From: Halorarum halophilum
GTDB lineage: Archaea; Halobacteriota; Halobacteria; Halobacteriales; Haloferacaceae
Length of the DNA: 64,000 nucleotides
Direction of reading: 5' to 3'
Assembly (NCBI RefSeq): GCF_013401515.1
Contig: NZ_CP058529.1
Location: 3,224,001 to 3,288,000 of the forward strand
The notes beneath the pieces were generated by a model, which saw only the letters and a list, made by a program, of their open reading frames with translations, searched no databases and had not been told where the DNA came from. Shown piece after piece: positions 11,942 to 35,522 of this stretch (position 1 is the stretch's first letter; each line of letters begins with the position of its first letter). Both the position numbers and the translations under genes were made by a program.

Positions 11942-13411
11942 ATGCTCGGCAATCGCAGGGCACTCCTCGTTGTCCTCGTTCTCATCGTGATGCTGAGTGG
12001 GTGTGCAGCCAGTCCTGGCGGACCGGCTGTCCCCTCCGTCGACGAGTCCACCGATACAAGTCCCACGTCTTCGATCGCTCCAACCGACTCTCCTACGCAG
12101 AATCAGACGACAACTGCACAGACTCCAAATGGAACGCTCGAGGTCCACTTCATCAACGTCGGGCAGGGTGCCAGCACACTCATCGTCACGCCAACTGGGG
12201 AGACGATGCTGATCGATACGGGCGACTGGCGCGATGAAGGCGAACACGTCATCGACTATCTCGACGCCCAGGGGATCGATAGAATCGACCACCTCGTAAC
12301 GACGCACGCGGACGCCGACCACATAGGTGGCCACGCAGCGGTGATCGAGTACTACGAGACGGAGAAAGACGGAATCGGCGCAGTGTACGACCCCGGTCTC
12401 TCCGCCAGTTCGGCGACGTACGAGCGCTACCTCGACGCCATCGAAGAACACGACGTCCAGCTGTACGAGACGCGTGCAGGTGACACGCTTCCGCTCGACG
12501 GTGCAGAAGTATCCGTCCTCGGGCCGCCAGAGCCGTATCTCGCCAACGAGGATCGCAATGAGAACAGTATCGTCCTCCTCGTACGCCACGGCGAGACGGG
12601 CTTCCTCTTCCAAGGCGATGCCGAAGCCGAACAGGAGGAGTACCTCGTCGACAGATACGGCGACCAGCTCAACGTAACCGTCCTGCAGGCAGGTCATCAC
12701 GGGAGCCGGTCGAGCACTGACGAGGAGCTCCTCGATGTAACAGAGCCACAGGTAGCAGTCATCTCCAGCGCGTACGACTCTCAGTATGACCACCCGCACA
12801 CCGAGACACTCCAGCGGCTCGCTGACCGCTCGATCCCGACCTACTGGACGGCAACCCATGGTACGACTGCATTCCGATCGAATGGCTCGGCCGTCGAGGT
12901 CTGGACCCAGCAGTCTGCGCCAACGACTGCGACAGCAATCCGCGACGGATCGCCGGTCGAGCCAGGGAGTGATGTCTCACTCGAACTGCGGATGACGCTC
13001 GGAGCAGCGATCGCCGACGGTGGTACGGACACACCTGAATCGTCGAGCACCGAGACCGAAACTGCGGACGATGAGGGGCCTGCGCTCTCGCTGGTCGAGA
13101 TCCACGCGGATGCGGAGGGTACCGAGAACGAGAACCTGAACGACGAGTACCTCGTCTTCGAGAATACTGGTGAGGACGCGCTCGACCTGTCTGGGTGGCA
13201 GGTCGCGGACAGTGCGGACCACACGTACACCGTCCCTGATGGGTTCACACTGGCGCCTGGTGAGCGTGTAACACTTCATACGGGGAGCGGGACGGACATA
13301 GCAACAGACCTCTACTGGGGTTCTGGAAGCGCGATCTGGAACAACGGTGGCGACACGGTCACCGTCACGGATTCCAGCGATGCGGTCGTACTACAGGAGG
13401 AGTACTCATGA
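11942..13411 (+). CDS. Secreted ComEC-like metallo-beta-lactamase lipoprotein with C-terminal lamin-tail-like domain
   Basis: A 489-aa protein with a signal peptide and lipobox LSGC (Cys21), then a Ser/Thr-rich linker. A metallo-beta-lactamase domain of the ComEC/Rec2 C-terminal type follows: VHFINVGQGAS (68-78), LIDTGD, HADADH (122-127), FQGDAEAEQE and LQAGHHGS. After a second acidic linker the last ~110 residues (EDALDLSGWQVADSADHTY) resemble a lamin-tail (LTD) domain. ComEC beta-lactamase domains are thought to degrade one DNA strand during uptake, and LTD domains often accompany secreted nucleases, so an extracellular nuclease or phosphodiesterase role is plausible. The stop overlaps the start of the next gene by 4 nt. 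Confidence 0.88.
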   Translation: MLGNRRALLVVLVLIVMLSGCAASPGGPAVPSVDESTDTSPTSSIAPTDSPTQNQTTTAQTPNGTLEVHFINVGQGASTLIVTPTGETMLIDTGDWRDEGEHVIDYLDAQGIDRIDHLVTTHADADHIGGHAAVIEYYETEKDGIGAVYDPGLSASSATYERYLDAIEEHDVQLYETRAGDTLPLDGAEVSVLGPPEPYLANEDRNENSIVLLVRHGETGFLFQGDAEAEQEEYLVDRYGDQLNVTVLQAGHHGSRSSTDEELLDVTEPQVAVISSAYDSQYDHPHTETLQRLADRSIPTYWTATHGTTAFRSNGSAVEVWTQQSAPTTATAIRDGSPVEPGSDVSLELRMTLGAAIADGGTDTPESSSTETETADDEGPALSLVEIHADAEGTENENLNDEYLVFENTGEDALDLSGWQVADSADHTYTVPDGFTLAPGERVTLHTGSGTDIATDLYWGSGSAIWNNGGDTVTVTDSSDAVVLQEEYS

Positions 13412-13716
13412 GCGAGACAGAGGAGACTGCGGTGTTAGACCGCTTCGAAGAAACCGAAGACGGGGAGGAGGTCGCCGTCCTCCTAATCGAGTCAGACGGA
13501 GAGGTAGTCGACGAGGCGGTCGTGGCACGTTCGAGGCTTCCCGAGGATGGCCGCCAGCAGGACGCGGTGTTCACCGTTCGCTTCGTGGACGGTGACCCCG
13601 TTGAGTTCAGCTATGAGTCCGAGGAGACCGAGAATCGCCAGGAGTCCGCGTCAGATCGGTTCGATCGGCTCTCGAAACGACTCTCAGATGAAGACGAATC
13701 AGAATCGCCTGAGTGA
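13408..13716 (+). CDS. DUF3006-like small acidic protein
   Basis: A 102-aa protein starting with VLDRFEETEDGEEVAVLLIE, the DUF3006 pattern (a short beta domain often found next to ComEC-like metallo-beta-lactamases), with a SRLPEDGRQQDAVF segment. The C-terminal third is a charged, probably disordered tail. The ATG overlaps the stop of the lipoprotein gene (ATGA), so translation is coupled. No signal peptide, so it should stay in the cytoplasm. Function unknown. Confidence 0.75.
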   Translation: MSETEETAVLDRFEETEDGEEVAVLLIESDGEVVDEAVVARSRLPEDGRQQDAVFTVRFVDGDPVEFSYESEETENRQESASDRFDRLSKRLSDEDESESPE

Positions 13717-27879: not shown

Positions 27880-29967
27880 CTATCGATTCGATAGTGATTG
27901 GGTGGCGCCACCGTTATCCACTGAAACCCCAAGCATTGTTTCGGAACCGTTCTCGCCTGGATCGAAATCGATCACCTCCGTCTCTAACGGAAGTGCCCGC
28001 ACCTCGAGACCGCGCCACTCACCGTCGACACCGACAAGAGCTTCCGAGTAGCCTGCCCGATCGTTCCCAGGAATCGCGTCCTGCACGAATCGCATCTGTG
28101 CGTAGTTCAGGCCGAACTCGTTGGCCCACTCCTCGTCCATACCGTCGAGCCGATGAAATTGCTTGACTGCACACTGGTCGAGGATGGCTTCCGACTCCGG
28201 ATGCTGGAAGAACTCGTCGACAGTCTGGGTGACAAGCTGGATTGAGAGATCGTGATGACGGTGATGGCGGAACACCGTCTCGAGGAAGGACAGGCTCGCG
28301 GTGTCCTGCATTACGTACCGCGCCTCGTCGATGCAGAATACGACCTCCTTCTCGGTCTCCTTTGCGCGTTCGTAGACGAGCGAGATGAGAAGTTGCATCA
28401 ATAGACTCGTGGTCCCACCGACGCTCCCCTCCTGCTGGCCGAGATCGAGATAGATGAGACCCTCATCACGAATATCGAACTCGGTCGGCCGCCCGAGGTT
28501 CTCGAACCGGCCGCCCTCGGCGAACGGTCGGAGTTGATCGATAAGCCACGTCGCATCGGCCCGTAACTTGTCCTCCTCCGCAGCCGTCCGAACGACGAAC
28601 GGTTGGGGATCGTCGACCAACGTCTCCAGGATATCGAGGACGTCCCTGAGCGTCGGGCTCTCGTTGGCGTGCGTGGCGATGTCGTCAGTGATCCCCTGCT
28701 CTCGATACGCATGGTCGATTGCGAGTTCGAGCGTCGTTCGCCGATCACCGAGGTCGACACCACGGAGGGCGAAGTAGTTCGTGAGGAAGCTCAGAACGCT
28801 CGCCTTCTTCTCGCTGAACGGGCTGGCGTCCTCGCCCATGGCGCGCTGGACGTGCTCCGGAGTCAGTTTGATCTCCAGAGGATTCAGCCCCATCGTCCCA
28901 CCGACCGTGATGCGACGGGCGCCGAGCGCGTCAGCGACGCCGGCCCAGTTGTTCAGCGGTTCGAGGATGATTCCCAGCCGGTTCGGCGACTGGGCGATCG
29001 ACCGGAGGAACTGCTGTTTAGCGCCGAACGATTTGCCAGAGCCCGGGTCACCCACGGTGAACTTGGCATAGCCGTTCTCGCGGGCGAAGGGGTCGATGAC
29101 GAGCGGGCTGTCCGTGTGACGATGGACGCCGACTTCAACCCCACCGGGCTCGAGGATCGTTGGCGTATGTGGTGAGGCGAGCACGGCCCCCACCGCTCCA
29201 CCGAGTGCGACGGCTTCACGGCCGAATGGATTGCCGGTCAGTGGGGCGGCAGCTCGGACAGCGAGATCCTGTGTGCAGATCGCCGTTTTCGGGGTGAGGT
29301 TCGCGGGCGTATCGCGGAGACGGCGGCGAACGGTCCGCACGTCCTCCCGCAGTGTTTCGCGAGAGTCGGCCCGGACGGTGACAAACATAGCCTGGCCGAA
29401 CACTCGCTGGCCGTTTTCGACGGCAGTGTAGGTGGCTGCCGCCTCGTGAGCGCGCTCCTGCAGGTAGCGCCCGTGGACACTCCGTTCGAGGTCGGCATCG
29501 ACCTGGAGGTCGTCGGCCACCTTCTGGAGTTCGTCACGGGCGCGTTCCTGATTCCTCGGCGTGATTCGAACCGTACAATCGAACTGGACGTCGGTGAGCG
29601 TGAACAGCTCGTTGAGGTAGCCGTCGGCGGGGTAGTCGGGCCAGTCAGCAACGTACAGCGTGCTCGTCCACTGCTCGCCGACACGGGCCGCTCTCGTCTC
29701 CCACTCGACGGCCGCAGGTGCGACAGCATGCTGCTGGCGCTCGGCGATCTCCTCGAGAACTGCCTGCTCGGCGTGGGCATCCCGCAAGACCGACTCGTCG
29801 AACACGGCACCGGGCTCGAACGGTTCGGGCTCCGCCCGACGATGCCACCACGTCGTGACCAGTACGCCGAGGAGCAGCGCCCCCAAAAGGGCAGTACCTA
29901 CTGGAAGCAAAGGCAACTCCGTGATGGGACCCTGAAGCGGGATGAGCGAGGACGGGAGATTACTCAT
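27880..29967 (-). CDS. VirB4/TrbE-like type IV secretion ATPase
   Basis: A 695-aa protein. A hydrophobic segment (about 24-40) anchors the N terminus. An N-terminal VirB4 domain (about 90-235) is followed by the ATPase core: Walker A GDPGSGKS (306-313), Walker B VVFCIDEA (542-549) and the helicase-like QLVTQTVDEF (577-586). VirB4 proteins power pilus assembly and substrate transfer in type IV secretion and conjugation; HerA/CedB-like relatives drive DNA import in archaea. The ATG at 29967 overlaps the stop of the upstream gene by 8 nt, which favours this start over longer frames. Last gene of a six-gene operon. Confidence 0.9.
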   Translation of the reverse strand: MSNLPSSLIPLQGPITELPLLPVGTALLGALLLGVLVTTWWHRRAEPEPFEPGAVFDESVLRDAHAEQAVLEEIAERQQHAVAPAAVEWETRAARVGEQWTSTLYVADWPDYPADGYLNELFTLTDVQFDCTVRITPRNQERARDELQKVADDLQVDADLERSVHGRYLQERAHEAAATYTAVENGQRVFGQAMFVTVRADSRETLREDVRTVRRRLRDTPANLTPKTAICTQDLAVRAAAPLTGNPFGREAVALGGAVGAVLASPHTPTILEPGGVEVGVHRHTDSPLVIDPFARENGYAKFTVGDPGSGKSFGAKQQFLRSIAQSPNRLGIILEPLNNWAGVADALGARRITVGGTMGLNPLEIKLTPEHVQRAMGEDASPFSEKKASVLSFLTNYFALRGVDLGDRRTTLELAIDHAYREQGITDDIATHANESPTLRDVLDILETLVDDPQPFVVRTAAEEDKLRADATWLIDQLRPFAEGGRFENLGRPTEFDIRDEGLIYLDLGQQEGSVGGTTSLLMQLLISLVYERAKETEKEVVFCIDEARYVMQDTASLSFLETVFRHHRHHDLSIQLVTQTVDEFFQHPESEAILDQCAVKQFHRLDGMDEEWANEFGLNYAQMRFVQDAIPGNDRAGYSEALVGVDGEWRGLEVRALPLETEVIDFDPGENGSETMLGVSVDNGGATQSLSNR

Positions 29968-31078
29968 CGACGGCCTCCCGAGGATGATGGTCGATCGCAG
30001 GCACCGTGCTGACGGCAGCGGCGGCGTCACCGTACTCATGGGTCTCGCCGTTCCAGAACTCCATGGCGAGCAGGTACAGTTCGGGCGTGTCGAGCCGGTG
30101 GCTCGACCAGCCCCCAGTGGCTCCGACGAGTTCGGTTTCGACCGCTCGGCAGCGCCTGTCCAGCAGGTCGAACAACTCAGCCCGGAGTTCGCCCTCGGTC
30201 AGGCGTTCGCGCCGGGTCACGAACGGGGTGACGAGGACGCCGAGCACCGGTATCCGACTCAGCCGCTCGGCGGGTGGCCGTTCGTCAGTGTGGCGGTTGT
30301 ACACCTCGAACGGCGTCACCTCCACACCGAGGTAGTAGTGGAGCTGCTGGGTTTCGGCGAGGTCAGCAGGCCGCCGTTCACGATACTCCTCCAGGAGCTC
30401 GCGAAACACCGGGTTCGCCGCGACGTCGTCGTCCATCAGTCGGTCGTCGATCTGGTCGATGAGTTGCTCCACCGGAAACGGACGCGTCGTCGCGTGGAGT
30501 GTCAGCGGAAAGTCGAGGTCGTTGTTGGCGAACTTCTCGGCGACGGCCTGACGGGACGCCCAGTCACCGGACATCGCGAAGTCCATGTTCGCCGGATCGA
30601 GCTGGAGCATCCCCACCATGGTCCCGTCGGATTGCTCGATTGCGCCGGCGCCGGGCCACGCCCGTTCGAGTCCCGTGAGATCTTGCGTACGCTCGTCCGG
30701 CGTGAACGGACTGTATTCGCGGACACCACCATCGGTCTGTCTCGCCGCGTTCGCTTCGTCACTTGAATGGCCCGTGGGAGCAGCGACGGTAACGCGTGGC
30801 CGGGCGAGATAGTAGCGAGCGACGTCACCGAGCCAGGTCCCAGCAGGGAGATGCGATGGGGAGGCCACCACGGCAGCGACTCCTGTGAGGATGCCGAGTA
30901 GCACGAGGGGAAGCACCAGTACGTCGATTCCAGTGAGGCCACCGAGAAGCAGTCCGACGGTCGGAAAGCCGACGAGGACGTACACGTCTCCCTCGGGGAT
31001 GTTGATGATCGGAAGGCGACTCTCTTCGCCGATAGCGTCCATGATGCGGCGGGACGCGGCGTCGTGATCGTTCGTCAT
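29960..31078 (-). CDS. Membrane protein with VirB3/PrgI-like N terminus and possible VirB4-like N-domain
   Basis: A 372-aa protein. Two adjacent hydrophobic segments lie at about 33-72, after a short soluble tail that includes NIPEGDVYVLVGFP; this arrangement resembles VirB3/TrbD/PrgI proteins. The rest is soluble and includes DGTMVGMLQLDPANMDFAMS, similar in layout to the N-terminal domain of VirB4 ATPases, but there is no Walker motif. VirB3 normally binds VirB4, and this gene overlaps the VirB4 start, so a membrane platform for the ATPase is likely. The assignment is by layout and context; sequence similarity needs a profile search. Confidence 0.6.
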   Translation of the reverse strand: MTNDHDAASRRIMDAIGEESRLPIINIPEGDVYVLVGFPTVGLLLGGLTGIDVLVLPLVLLGILTGVAAVVASPSHLPAGTWLGDVARYYLARPRVTVAAPTGHSSDEANAARQTDGGVREYSPFTPDERTQDLTGLERAWPGAGAIEQSDGTMVGMLQLDPANMDFAMSGDWASRQAVAEKFANNDLDFPLTLHATTRPFPVEQLIDQIDDRLMDDDVAANPVFRELLEEYRERRPADLAETQQLHYYLGVEVTPFEVYNRHTDERPPAERLSRIPVLGVLVTPFVTRRERLTEGELRAELFDLLDRRCRAVETELVGATGGWSSHRLDTPELYLLAMEFWNGETHEYGDAAAAVSTVPAIDHHPREAVDE

Positions 31079-31087
31079 CGTCGGGAC

Positions 31088-32236
31088 TCAGTAGTATCCG
31101 GGGTCGTTCTCGGTCCGCCGATACGAGGGAACGCCGCGCTGGCCGTTCGCGTCAACGACGACGTTGTCCTGGTTCGTTCCAGCAGTGTTAGCGGTCTGCA
31201 CGTGTTCGGTTTGTCCGCCTGTTCCGTTCGTACTCGATGCAACGCGCTGTGCGACTGCATGACCAGCAGCGGCTTTCGGCCCCCATCGGGCAGCCGTTGA
31301 GGCGGCATACGGGCCAGCGACAGCCCCAGCAGTGACGACTGCACCAGCGGTTACCGCGGCGCCAGTGGCGGTGCCGAGCACTGTCGCCGTCAGTGGGGAC
31401 GCGTACTTGAACAGCTTCCAGACGACGAGTACGGCAAGGAACGGAAGCGATGCTGCGAGGAGATAGCTGAGAAACGCGCTCTCGGGGGCTAGGGGTGCGC
31501 CGGTTCCCTCGCTGAACAGGAGGGCGTATGATTTGAACAGGACCGCGACCGGAAGCGGCATGATCGCCAGCGGGACGAACTTCAAACTAAGTGCCTTCGC
31601 AATTCGGGAGACGACAGGAAGATTGCCGAACGTGATGGCGATCGCCAACGGCATTCCGTACACGTAGATGTAGAGGAGGACTTCTCGAATGAACAGGAGC
31701 GCTTGGAGTACCCACATTGAGAGTCCTCCTAAGGTGGCCATTGAGAGCGCAAGGGCCGGATTGGAGAGGGATACACGCAAAAAGCTCAGCATGGCGCTTG
31801 TGACGACCGCTATGTCCGGTATCAATGCAATAGTGAATCCATCGACAAGATAGAGGGTTAAGACGCACACCCAATACCAGGTCACTATTAGAAATGCTCC
31901 AGTCCAAGCTGTGCTCCCTGTCTTCCTAGCTTCATACCTACTTCCCATTTTGAAAATACGAACAGTATGCCGTCCTTGGACACAAGTCACGAGCAACAGT
32001 AGTCCAACGAGCATCATTTCACCGCCTACGAGAGAATCATGGAGTTCAACCCATGGCTCGTTCGTTGGTCTTCCGAAAACAAACGATCCCTCCGTTGCGG
32101 GAGTTGGTGTACCAAATTGACTCTTTGCGAGAGTTCGATAGCCCTCGATTATGCCGCTCTGGAACCAGTCAATGATCCGTTCGACAGCATCTTCGAACCA
32201 TTTGAGTCCAATATCAACTAGCGAGATGTTACTCAA
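31088..32236 (-). CDS. VirB6/TrbL-like polytopic membrane protein
   Basis: A 382-aa protein with a soluble N terminus, about seven hydrophobic segments between residues 70 and 320, and a soluble Gly/Thr/Asn-rich C-terminal tail. This layout matches VirB6/TrbL channel components of type IV secretion systems (CedA in the archaeal DNA-import system). The start codon is TTG, overlapping the stop of the upstream lipoprotein gene as TTGA; translation is probably coupled. The gene ends 9 nt before the next one. The first half is visibly less GC-rich than the flanking operon genes. Confidence 0.7.
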   Translation of the reverse strand: MSNISLVDIGLKWFEDAVERIIDWFQSGIIEGYRTLAKSQFGTPTPATEGSFVFGRPTNEPWVELHDSLVGGEMMLVGLLLLVTCVQGRHTVRIFKMGSRYEARKTGSTAWTGAFLIVTWYWVCVLTLYLVDGFTIALIPDIAVVTSAMLSFLRVSLSNPALALSMATLGGLSMWVLQALLFIREVLLYIYVYGMPLAIAITFGNLPVVSRIAKALSLKFVPLAIMPLPVAVLFKSYALLFSEGTGAPLAPESAFLSYLLAASLPFLAVLVVWKLFKYASPLTATVLGTATGAAVTAGAVVTAGAVAGPYAASTAARWGPKAAAGHAVAQRVASSTNGTGGQTEHVQTANTAGTNQDNVVVDANGQRGVPSYRRTENDPGYY

Positions 32237-33054
32237 GGTTCCACCTCCGAGATCCTGACATTACAGGAAGGGAACCCTTCGCCTGTATACTCTACATTAT
32301 ATGACTTCCTGTGAGAGTCCTTACTAAGCTCAGTGAGGATTTTCACCGAAAACCTTCCTTCGACAGTCTCAGGTCCACATGAGATGTTACTGCCTGACGA
32401 ACCAAACGGTTGGGTGAAGCTGAAGATGTTTTCCTCCTCGTCAACCGTGATTAGGGCCTTCTCGCGATGTTCGTGAAGACCGCTCTCTGTATCATAGATT
32501 CCGCTCTCTTCGAAATCATTGGGTGTCGGTTGCGGAACGTCACCTTCGAAGCGAAGCTGCGTCACAGCATCTGGCCCAGTTCCGTGATTTTCCACGGTGA
32601 CAATGGCCTCTGATCGGATTGCCTGATCACTCGCTCCTTCGTACATCTCGTCGGGATGGTTCCGGCCGAGCTTCAGATCGGTAATCCGGACGTCCGGACG
32701 GATATCAAGACTCGCTTCGTCGACCGTCTCCTCATCGGCGATCGCGTGAACTTCGTACTCTCCCGGTGAATACGGCATCCCGAGGTCGATCGTTTCACGG
32801 GTCACACCGGCTGCTACGCTTCGCGTCGCGAACTCCGATCCATCCGGTTGAATCACCGTGAGCCCATCGACGGAAGCGTCCTCACGAAGCGTGACGACGA
32901 GCTGCATCTCGCTCACAGTGACGTCACGAATTGCACCATCAGATTCTCCCTGGCCATCGGGCGCCCCAGTACAGCCAGCAAGTGGGAGGACCGTGCTCCC
33001 AGCGATGCTTCCAAGGACTGTCCGTCGGTGGAGGTGTCGATCGGTGTGTATCAT
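32233..33054 (-). CDS. Tat-type lipoprotein of the DNA-transfer operon
   Basis: A 273-aa secreted protein. The N terminus has HRRTVLGSIAG and the lipobox LAGC, followed by an acidic beta-rich domain with repeated VTVE-like strands and two cysteines near the C terminus (SCGPE and PSCNVR) that could form a disulfide. Start ATG at 33054 overlaps the preceding stop (ATGA). It could play the part of a VirB7-like lipoprotein or a surface adhesin, but no family was recognised. Confidence 0.7.
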   Translation of the reverse strand: MIHTDRHLHRRTVLGSIAGSTVLPLAGCTGAPDGQGESDGAIRDVTVSEMQLVVTLREDASVDGLTVIQPDGSEFATRSVAAGVTRETIDLGMPYSPGEYEVHAIADEETVDEASLDIRPDVRITDLKLGRNHPDEMYEGASDQAIRSEAIVTVENHGTGPDAVTQLRFEGDVPQPTPNDFEESGIYDTESGLHEHREKALITVDEEENIFSFTQPFGSSGSNISCGPETVEGRFSVKILTELSKDSHRKSYNVEYTGEGFPSCNVRISEVEP

Positions 33055-34781
33055 AGGTATTCGTCGTACTGCAGGAATCTTCCGAGGCGTATGCCGCCGT
33101 ACAGGGCTGTGATGAACGGGATAGACCACCAGACCACCTCGGCGATGAGGGCCGTCCAACCGGAGATGGTCCACAACGGGTGCCAGGAGAGGCTCGCGGA
33201 GTCACCGACATACGCCGGATCATGTGAGAGCCACGAGCCAGGGTGGTAGCGGGCCGTGTAGCTCCCCGGTTCGTTGACAGTCACGACAGCGACGCCCTCG
33301 ACATTCGTCTCGATTCGCTGGCCGTTGACGGTGATGTACCCTTCACGTGCTTCCCCACCAATCGGAACGGCCTGTGGGTCGTCGCTCTGCGTTTCCGCGA
33401 GGTGAATCGGTACACCTGTGGTGGCATCGGAGAGTTCGATCCGGAGCGTCGCCGTAGACTCGTTCTGCTCCAGAACATCGATGCTCAGGTTGCTCTCGTG
33501 CAATGGGCGCTCAGCGTTCCCATCTGGCGTGCGGATGGTCGCATTCACCCCGCGCACGACTCCGTGGACGCGAAGCTGATCTGGGTCGACGTCCGTGTAC
33601 CGAAGCCCGAGCCCGTATGACCGCGTGTAAGAGGACGTGACAACGTCAACCGAGACGTTCTCGTGGAGTCTTGATGCGGGGGACTGACTTTCCGTCCCCC
33701 AGACGTCCAGGATCGTCGGCCCATCACGAACAGGTTCCGCACGTGGACCGATCTCCGATGGGTAGGCGTGGACGTACACCGGGCGAGCGTCCGAGTCGGT
33801 TCGCTCAGAGCCGTCGACCCGGGCGTGAACGAGTTCGTCCCAGCTCTCATCGCGGGCTGTGTAGTAGCGCCAGATACCACGGACCCGTGCCTCGCCGTCC
33901 GCGGTCAGCTGATAGCCGTGCCAGGGCTGGCTCTGATAGATTGCTACCCCCGCATCGCCGTTGGGATACCCAACCCGGTACTGCTCCACGACCGGGTCGT
34001 AGACCCTGACAGGAACGGAGTCGGAGACGGTGAGGTGGTCGGTGGTCATCTCCGACCCATTGCCGAGCCCTTCCGTCATCTGACCCGAGAGGGTGACGCG
34101 GATGTCGGCCTCGACCTTGAGGGTCGTTCGCCTGCTTCCGTTGGTCCTGTATTCGATGACGGGCAGTTGTGATCCATCAGTGACCGCCAGACGGTCGTCG
34201 CCAAAGTAGAGGCGAACCTCGCTCACCTCGTGATCGACCACCGACCAGCCACCAGAGCCGGTTTCTGTTGGTCCGTCCTCGGGGACTCGCACGCGATAGT
34301 CGACGAGTCCTCGGACCGTCCCGTGCGGCGCGATGTACAGTGGTGAAGTGCCCGGATCACGGTGAATTCGCGTCGACGGATGGACGGCGAAGAGTGACGC
34401 GTGTGCGTCCGCGATCGCCACCGATTCGGTTAGATTCGCGTCTGGTGGATGTACCGACGTCTCTCCATCGCCGGGTTCGAGGTTGCCGAAGTCGTGTGCG
34501 CTCCAGGTCGCTGCTGTCGCCGGTGGTCGTTTGAACGTGATGTCAGTGCAGTTGGCCAACTCCTCCATCGCGTGCTGCTCAGATTTCGAGCCGACCGATC
34601 CGTTCGGGTCAACAGTACAGCGATCGGAGTCCTTTGACCAGAGTGTCGCCGTCTCGTTGTCGTCGAGTGGGCTGTCCTCAGCTGTCTGCTGGGAGCGCTC
34701 AGTGGCAGCACCAAGTCCGACCACGACGACGCCCACGGCTACCAGGATGGCGACCAGCGCCTGCGGTGACTGCGATCTCAT
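33051..34781 (-). CDS. Large surface protein anchored by N- and C-terminal membrane segments
   Basis: A 576-aa protein. A signal-anchor helix follows MRSQSPQ (about 8-27), then about 500 acidic, beta-rich extracellular residues with several N-glycosylation sequons, an Ig-like/carboxypeptidase-regulatory-like repeat near the end (VNGQRIETNVEGVAVVTV), and a C-terminal hydrophobic pair around GWTALIAEVVWWSIPF. It has no recognised family. As the second gene of the operon, 16 nt after the VirB2-like gene, it may be the exposed contact or stalk component of the machine. Confidence 0.7.
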   Translation of the reverse strand: MRSQSPQALVAILVAVGVVVVGLGAATERSQQTAEDSPLDDNETATLWSKDSDRCTVDPNGSVGSKSEQHAMEELANCTDITFKRPPATAATWSAHDFGNLEPGDGETSVHPPDANLTESVAIADAHASLFAVHPSTRIHRDPGTSPLYIAPHGTVRGLVDYRVRVPEDGPTETGSGGWSVVDHEVSEVRLYFGDDRLAVTDGSQLPVIEYRTNGSRRTTLKVEADIRVTLSGQMTEGLGNGSEMTTDHLTVSDSVPVRVYDPVVEQYRVGYPNGDAGVAIYQSQPWHGYQLTADGEARVRGIWRYYTARDESWDELVHARVDGSERTDSDARPVYVHAYPSEIGPRAEPVRDGPTILDVWGTESQSPASRLHENVSVDVVTSSYTRSYGLGLRYTDVDPDQLRVHGVVRGVNATIRTPDGNAERPLHESNLSIDVLEQNESTATLRIELSDATTGVPIHLAETQSDDPQAVPIGGEAREGYITVNGQRIETNVEGVAVVTVNEPGSYTARYHPGSWLSHDPAYVGDSASLSWHPLWTISGWTALIAEVVWWSIPFITALYGGIRLGRFLQYDEYL

Positions 34782-34797
34782 TGCTGTCGAACACAGG

Positions 34798-35214
34798 TTA
34801 CCAGGGGACCAGGTCGACACACTGCGCGAGCGGGAGGTTCATCATCGAACCCGCGACCATGTACAACGGTCCGAGGACTAACAGGAGGAGCGCGGATTTC
34901 AGCGCGCCTCGTTTGTGCCGTTTGAGTCCTTCGCGCTGCTCGGGATGAAGGGTAAACATCTCTGCGAGCGAGTCCGCTTGCCAGACAACGACGACCCCGA
35001 TGACCCCGATCCCAGTTGTGAGCTGGAAGAATCCCGAGATCATCTCGGGGAGTCGTTCGGCCGCACAGACGGCGGATTCCTGTGCGACGACGGGTTCGAC
35101 GAGGGCGAAGCTGAGGAGGACAACTGTTCCGAGTACTCGACGCAGCACCTGCGAGCGGTACGGTTGGGTATCGGTTTCTGAACCTGTGTCGGATTGGACT
35201 TCTGTGGAGGTCAT
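34798..35214 (-). CDS. VirB2/CedA1-like small membrane protein (candidate pilin)
   Basis: A 138-aa protein. A signal-like helix (about 25-44) ends in VVAQES, a plausible signal-peptidase site; the mature part would be about 90 residues with two hydrophobic helices joined by a basic loop (QREGLKRHKRGALK). That is the topology of VirB2-family pilins. Two cysteines (AVCAAE and AQCVDL) flank the helices and may be paired outside the cell. First gene of the operon, as expected for an abundant pilin. Family assignment rests on topology and neighbours. Confidence 0.6.
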   Translation of the reverse strand: MTSTEVQSDTGSETDTQPYRSQVLRRVLGTVVLLSFALVEPVVAQESAVCAAERLPEMISGFFQLTTGIGVIGVVVVWQADSLAEMFTLHPEQREGLKRHKRGALKSALLLLVLGPLYMVAGSMMNLPLAQCVDLVPW

Positions 35215-35522
35215 GGTTGAGGTTGGGTCGTGTGCCGGGAACCCGGATCAACGTGGAGAGCTGAATCCCTGGTTCCACTATCTGTACATACAATATACTA
35301 TGGAAGAGTAGTTGAATATAATATTATTGAATTGGATAAAATACGCAACTAACAGGTGTATTGATGAACCAATCCCGACGCTGTTCTCCCCTGGTCGGGT
35401 CGGAACGTAGGACAGTATCTACTCGCGGTCCCCTGCCTGGTTCCGACCGCAGCCAATCGCCAATCTGAGGACCTCTATCAGGCGGAGGATTAAGACGCCC
35501 TCACGCGTTTCCACTCGTACTC
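35215..35522. other. AT-rich intergenic region right of the DNA-transfer operon
   Basis: No gene is supported. It contains an AT-rich run (about 35288-35345), which probably includes the operon promoter: a TATA-like sequence near 35291 on the minus strand would give a leader of about 50 nt. It also marks a visible step to higher GC content to the right. Confidence 0.5.

Follow-up and report, generated by a model that had tools for sequence, protein, structure and literature searches.

The six-gene operon on the minus strand of the analyzed window (64,000 nucleotides of the Halorarum halophilum contig NZ_CP058529.1) most probably codes for a mating channel through which DNA would be transferred by a conjugation-type system, which is carried by a ~100-kb integrative element and has a remote motor ATPase, termed g7' (probability about 0.78). 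According to the proposed scheme, a membrane channel or pilus would be built from the VirB2-like, VirB6, and VirB3/VirB4 proteins, with g2 and g3 contributing surface components, and the ~1180-aa HerA/TrwB-like protein g7', encoded at the opposite end of the element, would serve as the substrate motor; an OB-fold protein of the element, a possible binder of single-stranded DNA, would assist it. We infer from linkage and co-variation that the operon and g7' form one machine; its substrate is presumably DNA, which is presumably exported to a recipient and not imported. The window operon is best read as the part of an integrative conjugative-like element responsible for transfer, and this copy of the element is perhaps immobile. 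The label "conjugative-like" is preferred to that of a canonical ICE because the relaxase is absent.

Gene content of the operon and identity of its products

All six genes of the operon, g1 to g6, are present and intact at window positions 27880–35214 (Table 1), and neighboring genes overlap or are separated by gaps within about 16 nt, as proposed in the first-pass annotation. The same set and order of genes was observed again within the same genus (46–82% identity) and in dozens of haloarchaea outside it, where identity is comparable; this recurrence of the order and of all six genes argues that the operon is not a chance arrangement.

Table 1. Coordinates of the operon genes and of other features in the window
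Feature	Positions	Strand	Characteristics
g1, VirB2/TrbC-pilin-like small membrane protein	34798..35214	-	signal peptide (ends VVAQ) followed by two hydrophobic helices
g2, large extracellular protein	33051..34820	-	signal peptide and C-terminal membrane anchor; alternative ATG start possible at 34781
g3, Tat lipoprotein	32233..33054	-	ATG start; twin arginine and Tat-lipobox RRTVLGSIAGSTVLPLAGC
g4, VirB6/TrbL polytopic channel protein	31088..32236	-	Pfam TrbL_3 PF19590
g5, two membrane helices (VirB3/PrgI-like), then probable VirB4 N-domain-like alpha/beta domain	29960..31078	-	
g6, VirB4 ATPase	27880..29967	-	intact Walker A (GDPGSGKS) and Walker B (VVFCIDEA)
AT-rich gap from g1 to divergent PLP-enzyme gene	35215..35522	.	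right edge of low-GC island
Element-associated MBL-fold (ComEC-like) lipoprotein with lamin-tail domain, and DUF3006-like gene	11942..13716	+	Pfam

The VirB-type assignments proposed earlier for these products stand with unequal firmness. The identification of g4 as VirB6/TrbL and of g6 as VirB4 is secure: g4 matches the TrbL_3 family over its full length (E=1e-183), the g6 family profile matches the VirB4 structure 4ag5 in PDB (E=1.3e-11), the Walker motif columns of g6 are invariant across 18 homologs, and its E values against the NCBIfam VirB4 families reach 1.6e-31, under the curated cutoffs. A VirB2-like identity of g1 is weakly supported by matches of 15 of the 24 family members to the Pfam TrbC/VirB2 model (PF04956; best E=6e-4) and of two of them to T4SS_pilin; the window copy itself does not match PF04956, and its predicted structure, three helices modeled at low confidence, has no fold match. 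The predicted model of g5 (pLDDT 48) is also of low confidence; its six best PDB matches are all VirB4/TrwK chains (E between 0.14 and 0.67, none significant singly), and a single family member matches PrgI (E=0.24), which is only suggestive of a VirB3/VirB4-N-like protein. The low confidence of both models is probably explained by the small number of sequences, only five, that went into them. The surface protein g2 has no match in Pfam, NCBIfam, or PDB and remains an operon member at about 80 loci, while g3 is present in most operons and missing or unrecognized in some.

In agreement with the first-pass annotation, no relaxase, VirD4, VirB11, or integrase gene was recognized within the window (ORFs were scanned, the outer parts by eye). 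The canonical relaxase family PF03432 is absent from the window genome and from 33 of 35 genomes, with weak matches in the other two, and no oriT was found. Archaeal conjugation is known to proceed without canonical, recognizable relaxases. Rep-Arvir proteins (PF25227), which are reported from archaeal conjugative elements (PMC13107129), were rejected as the missing relaxase: they occur in 28 of the 35 genomes, yet not near the elements.

A predicted motor ATPase at a distance from the operon

In annotated plasmids the operon continues into g7, which encodes a ~1200-aa ATP-binding HerA/TrwB-like protein, overlaps directly preceding g6 by 8 nt, and is often followed by genes for a PriS-like primase and a primase-associated protein. 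No g7 is located directly downstream of position 27880 in the window; the window genome (G000) encodes g7' (1177 aa) at C1:3157629-3161162, outside the window but on the same island, 91 kb from the operon. Its Walker A motif is intact (motifs were read in the window genome only), and matches to both TrwB_AAD_bind (24.0 vs. 20.5 bits) and the HerA domain DUF87 lie above the cutoffs. This protein shares 70% identity with g7' of the sister genome G026 and, being divergent, only about 32% with plasmid g7. By its domain content, the integrated element has a predicted type IV coupling-protein-like ATPase.

The locus survey, in which 85 VirB4 loci were scored for an adjacent g7, revealed that the gene is missing at 35 of them; an adjacent g7 is therefore not strictly defining for the TrbL_3/VirB4 operon family. 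The state without adjacent g7 characterizes 20 of the 24 contigs longer than 1.5 Mb vs. 9 of the 49 plasmid-size contigs with clearly scored loci (Fisher P=1.2e-7, a value that ignores phylogeny). At least six changes on the VirB4 tree are needed to account for this state, i.e., it arose several times; the copies from the window and from G026 belong to a clade of 12 rows, 11 of which have no adjacent g7.

The operon had been initially interpreted as a "minimal" machine devoid of a coupling protein, an interpretation that the genome-wide searches for g7 rule out. Among the 35 genomes without adjacent g7, 28 encode g7 or g7' on the same contig as the operon (our own count from the search tables) and four, all draft assemblies, on another contig; in G307 a g7 relative is found only as a fragment, and G028 and G310 have no g7 at the locus, the operon itself being broken in both. 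A short window can make such a system look minimal when the partner gene is far away. At the two broken loci (L107 in G028 and L096 in G310) the rest of the operon is lost, and VirB4 remains alone or with a part of g5.

All 18 assembled integrated elements contain both the operon and g7', 7–91 kb apart and usually with element genes between them. Conversely, intact close full-length g7' was detected in none of the 19 operon-free genomes, where matches are partial, interrupted, or distant; this rules out g7' as a housekeeping HerA. In addition, the distances among g6 and among g7' proteins are correlated (Mantel r=0.67, 0 of 5000 permutations, host phylogeny not corrected for). The first-pass annotation had regarded homologs always flanked by relaxase and VirD4 genes as evidence against its interpretation; of these two partners, a VirD4-type ATPase is indeed linked, and a relaxase is absent. 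Elsewhere on the chromosome of the window genome there are two truncated g7' pieces (C1:1723900-1724697 and C1:1499584-1500429, with 70% and 38% identity, respectively), which suggest older, decayed elements.

The proposed integrative element and distribution of the family

The region 3140–3260 kb of the window genome has a GC content of mostly 0.53–0.64 vs. mostly 0.64–0.72 outside, and the operon lies at the right edge of this low-GC island, where GC climbs from about 0.60 to 0.67–0.70. The ~100-kb integrative element was placed at about C1:3156000-3259500; the island contains the operon, g7', a truncated integrase, and genes for TFB, ArdC-like, and OB-fold proteins. Recurrent genes of the 18 elements encode the OB-fold protein (11 elements), TFB (10), and the ArdC-like M78 peptidase (9), as well as a replication-primase-like protein (10) and a SWIM-type zinc protein (9), the latter two being named by reading the sequence and not by a database match. 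The integrase gene beside g7' in the window genome is reduced to a C-terminal fragment, and thus this copy of the element may no longer excise; the sister genome G026 has a full-length integrase gene beside g1. A search for attachment sites at the element ends yielded no convincing repeats, the longest being 14 bp (17 bp in G026), which is short enough for chance. The ComEC-like MBL lipoprotein and DUF3006-like genes may be a part of the transfer function: in G026 their orthologs lie downstream of VirB4 at a distance of 2 kb, in G113, G247, and G352 they lie near the operon, and DUF3006 is named in the record of plasmid pAArc-CO. The island also carries a family B DNA polymerase gene (C1:3190770-3193016), and such a gene is found in pAArc-CO as well, which has the same operon. 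Positions 1–27500 of the window constitute island cargo rich in genes of sugar-acid type catabolism, including ABC transporters, IclR regulators, GFO/IDH/MocA proteins, and enolase-superfamily enzymes.

The TrbL_3 family has a patchy distribution: 145 of the 294 Halobacteria genomes have it, and the 14 control genomes, Haloferax volcanii among them, all lack it. Relatives of VirB4 were found in 222 plasmid records; in a set of 394 genomes, 204 have one at E<=1e-100. Viral origin was ruled out, as IMG/VR viral contigs contain no relatives of the operon and phage records give only distant partial matches. The dN/dS values for four genes in six close locus pairs (0.07–0.32) point to purifying selection; the transfer machine is maintained, at least in the family.

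Competing readings and known transfer systems

The first-pass annotation suggested either a Ced-like DNA-import or contact-dependent transfer machine or the transfer half of a decayed conjugative element. The transfer-half proposal is borne out by the location of the operon on plasmids and islands with mobile-element genes and by its linkage to g7'. The parallel with the Ced DNA-import system of Sulfolobales (PMC9905601) holds for the architecture, since both have a VirB2-, VirB6-, and VirB4/HerA-like set and no relaxase; in the sequence comparison, made via NCBIfam only, the sole match to CedD was a weak one of the plasmid g7 (E=0.0013). The parallel does not extend to the host-system status of Ced, as the family of the window operon resides on plasmids and in low-GC islands with mobile-element genes. 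Thus, a domesticated host machine for DNA import or exchange that works without a VirD4-type ATPase is unlikely: while the excess of chromosome-size contigs without adjacent g7, the conservation of the operon under purifying selection, and the truncated integrase of the window genome would fit it, g7' is found elsewhere on the same island, the family is patchily spread, and the state without adjacent g7 has arisen repeatedly.

A contact-dependent machine for protein delivery or adhesion that has lost DNA movement is slightly less probable still. The large surface protein and the lipoprotein of the operon, together with the absence of a relaxase, would fit such a machine, but g7' contains domains of the HerA/TrwB DNA-translocase type, primase genes directly continue the plasmid operons, the elements share a conserved OB-fold protein of the nucleic-acid-binding type, and no effector gene was recognized. 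Equally improbable is a remnant in decay that no longer functions: the integrase truncation, the lack of clear attachment sites, and the truncated g7' pieces at other chromosomal sites agree with it, whereas g1–g6 and g7' are intact and the dN/dS values between the window and G026 are 0.09–0.28 (with synonymous sites near saturation). The earlier description of the element as decayed is supported for its integrase only.

With the mating channel of an integrative element as the preferred reading, its closest known counterparts are the T4SS-like operons of haloarchaeal plasmids, for instance those of Natronorubrum bangense (CP031308) and Halobacterium sp. BOL4-2 (CP070334), which have all six genes, identically ordered, and VirB4 proteins with 69–77% identity to that of the window over the aligned part; there, however, g7 and often the primase genes are directly adjacent, whereas g7' of the window genome is 91 kb away. 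The integrated transfer element is of an already known kind: haloarchaeal elements with fusexins exceed 50 kb and encode VirB4, HerA, a TraG/VirD4-type ATPase, and a XerC/D recombinase (Moi et al., 2022, PMC9259645), and, likened by this published description, they represent the same kind of island. The Pfam model HAP2-GCS1, which may be too distant to detect Fsx1, gave no fusexin match over the cutoff in 35 genomes, and two candidate anchored proteins looked unrelated by eye. Similarly, the euryarchaeal plasmid pT33-3 from Thermococcus conjugates without a relaxase and requires VirB4- and VirD4-like proteins (reviewed in PMC12857230), a likeness to the window system that is again drawn by description. 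A further class considered, the pR1SE-like vesicle plasmids, is recognized by its vesicle gene clusters ORF6-9 and ORF17-25 (PMC10818511).

We found no description, in the literature searched, of operon and motor recurrently lying tens of kilobases apart with all six operon genes retained; this split layout and the missing relaxase are the remaining points of interest. A wider proposal is tentative, with the odds somewhat against it: a large family of haloarchaeal integrative elements may conjugate without any relaxase, having the channel operon and the HerA/TrwB-like motor at opposite element ends, and the motor and the OB-fold protein may prepare DNA in a manner unlike that of bacterial conjugation. 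Few relaxase-less archaeal conjugation systems are defined well enough for testing. The family described here is common, occurs in cultivated haloarchaea, and has a recurrent gene set (g1–g6, a distant coupling-type ATPase, and often the OB-fold protein, TFB, ArdC-like gene, and integrase), which makes each step of relaxase-independent transfer testable.

Two further observations concern related systems. In several plasmids (L035, L145, L146, L152, L153, L155-L157), ExoVII-like xseA/xseB genes are located immediately upstream of the operon. On its 187-kb contig C3 (C3:16376-25459; L042, L043), the window genome encodes another, distant system of this type, which comprises g4-, g5-, g6-, and g7-like genes with 22–43% identity to the N. 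bangense set.
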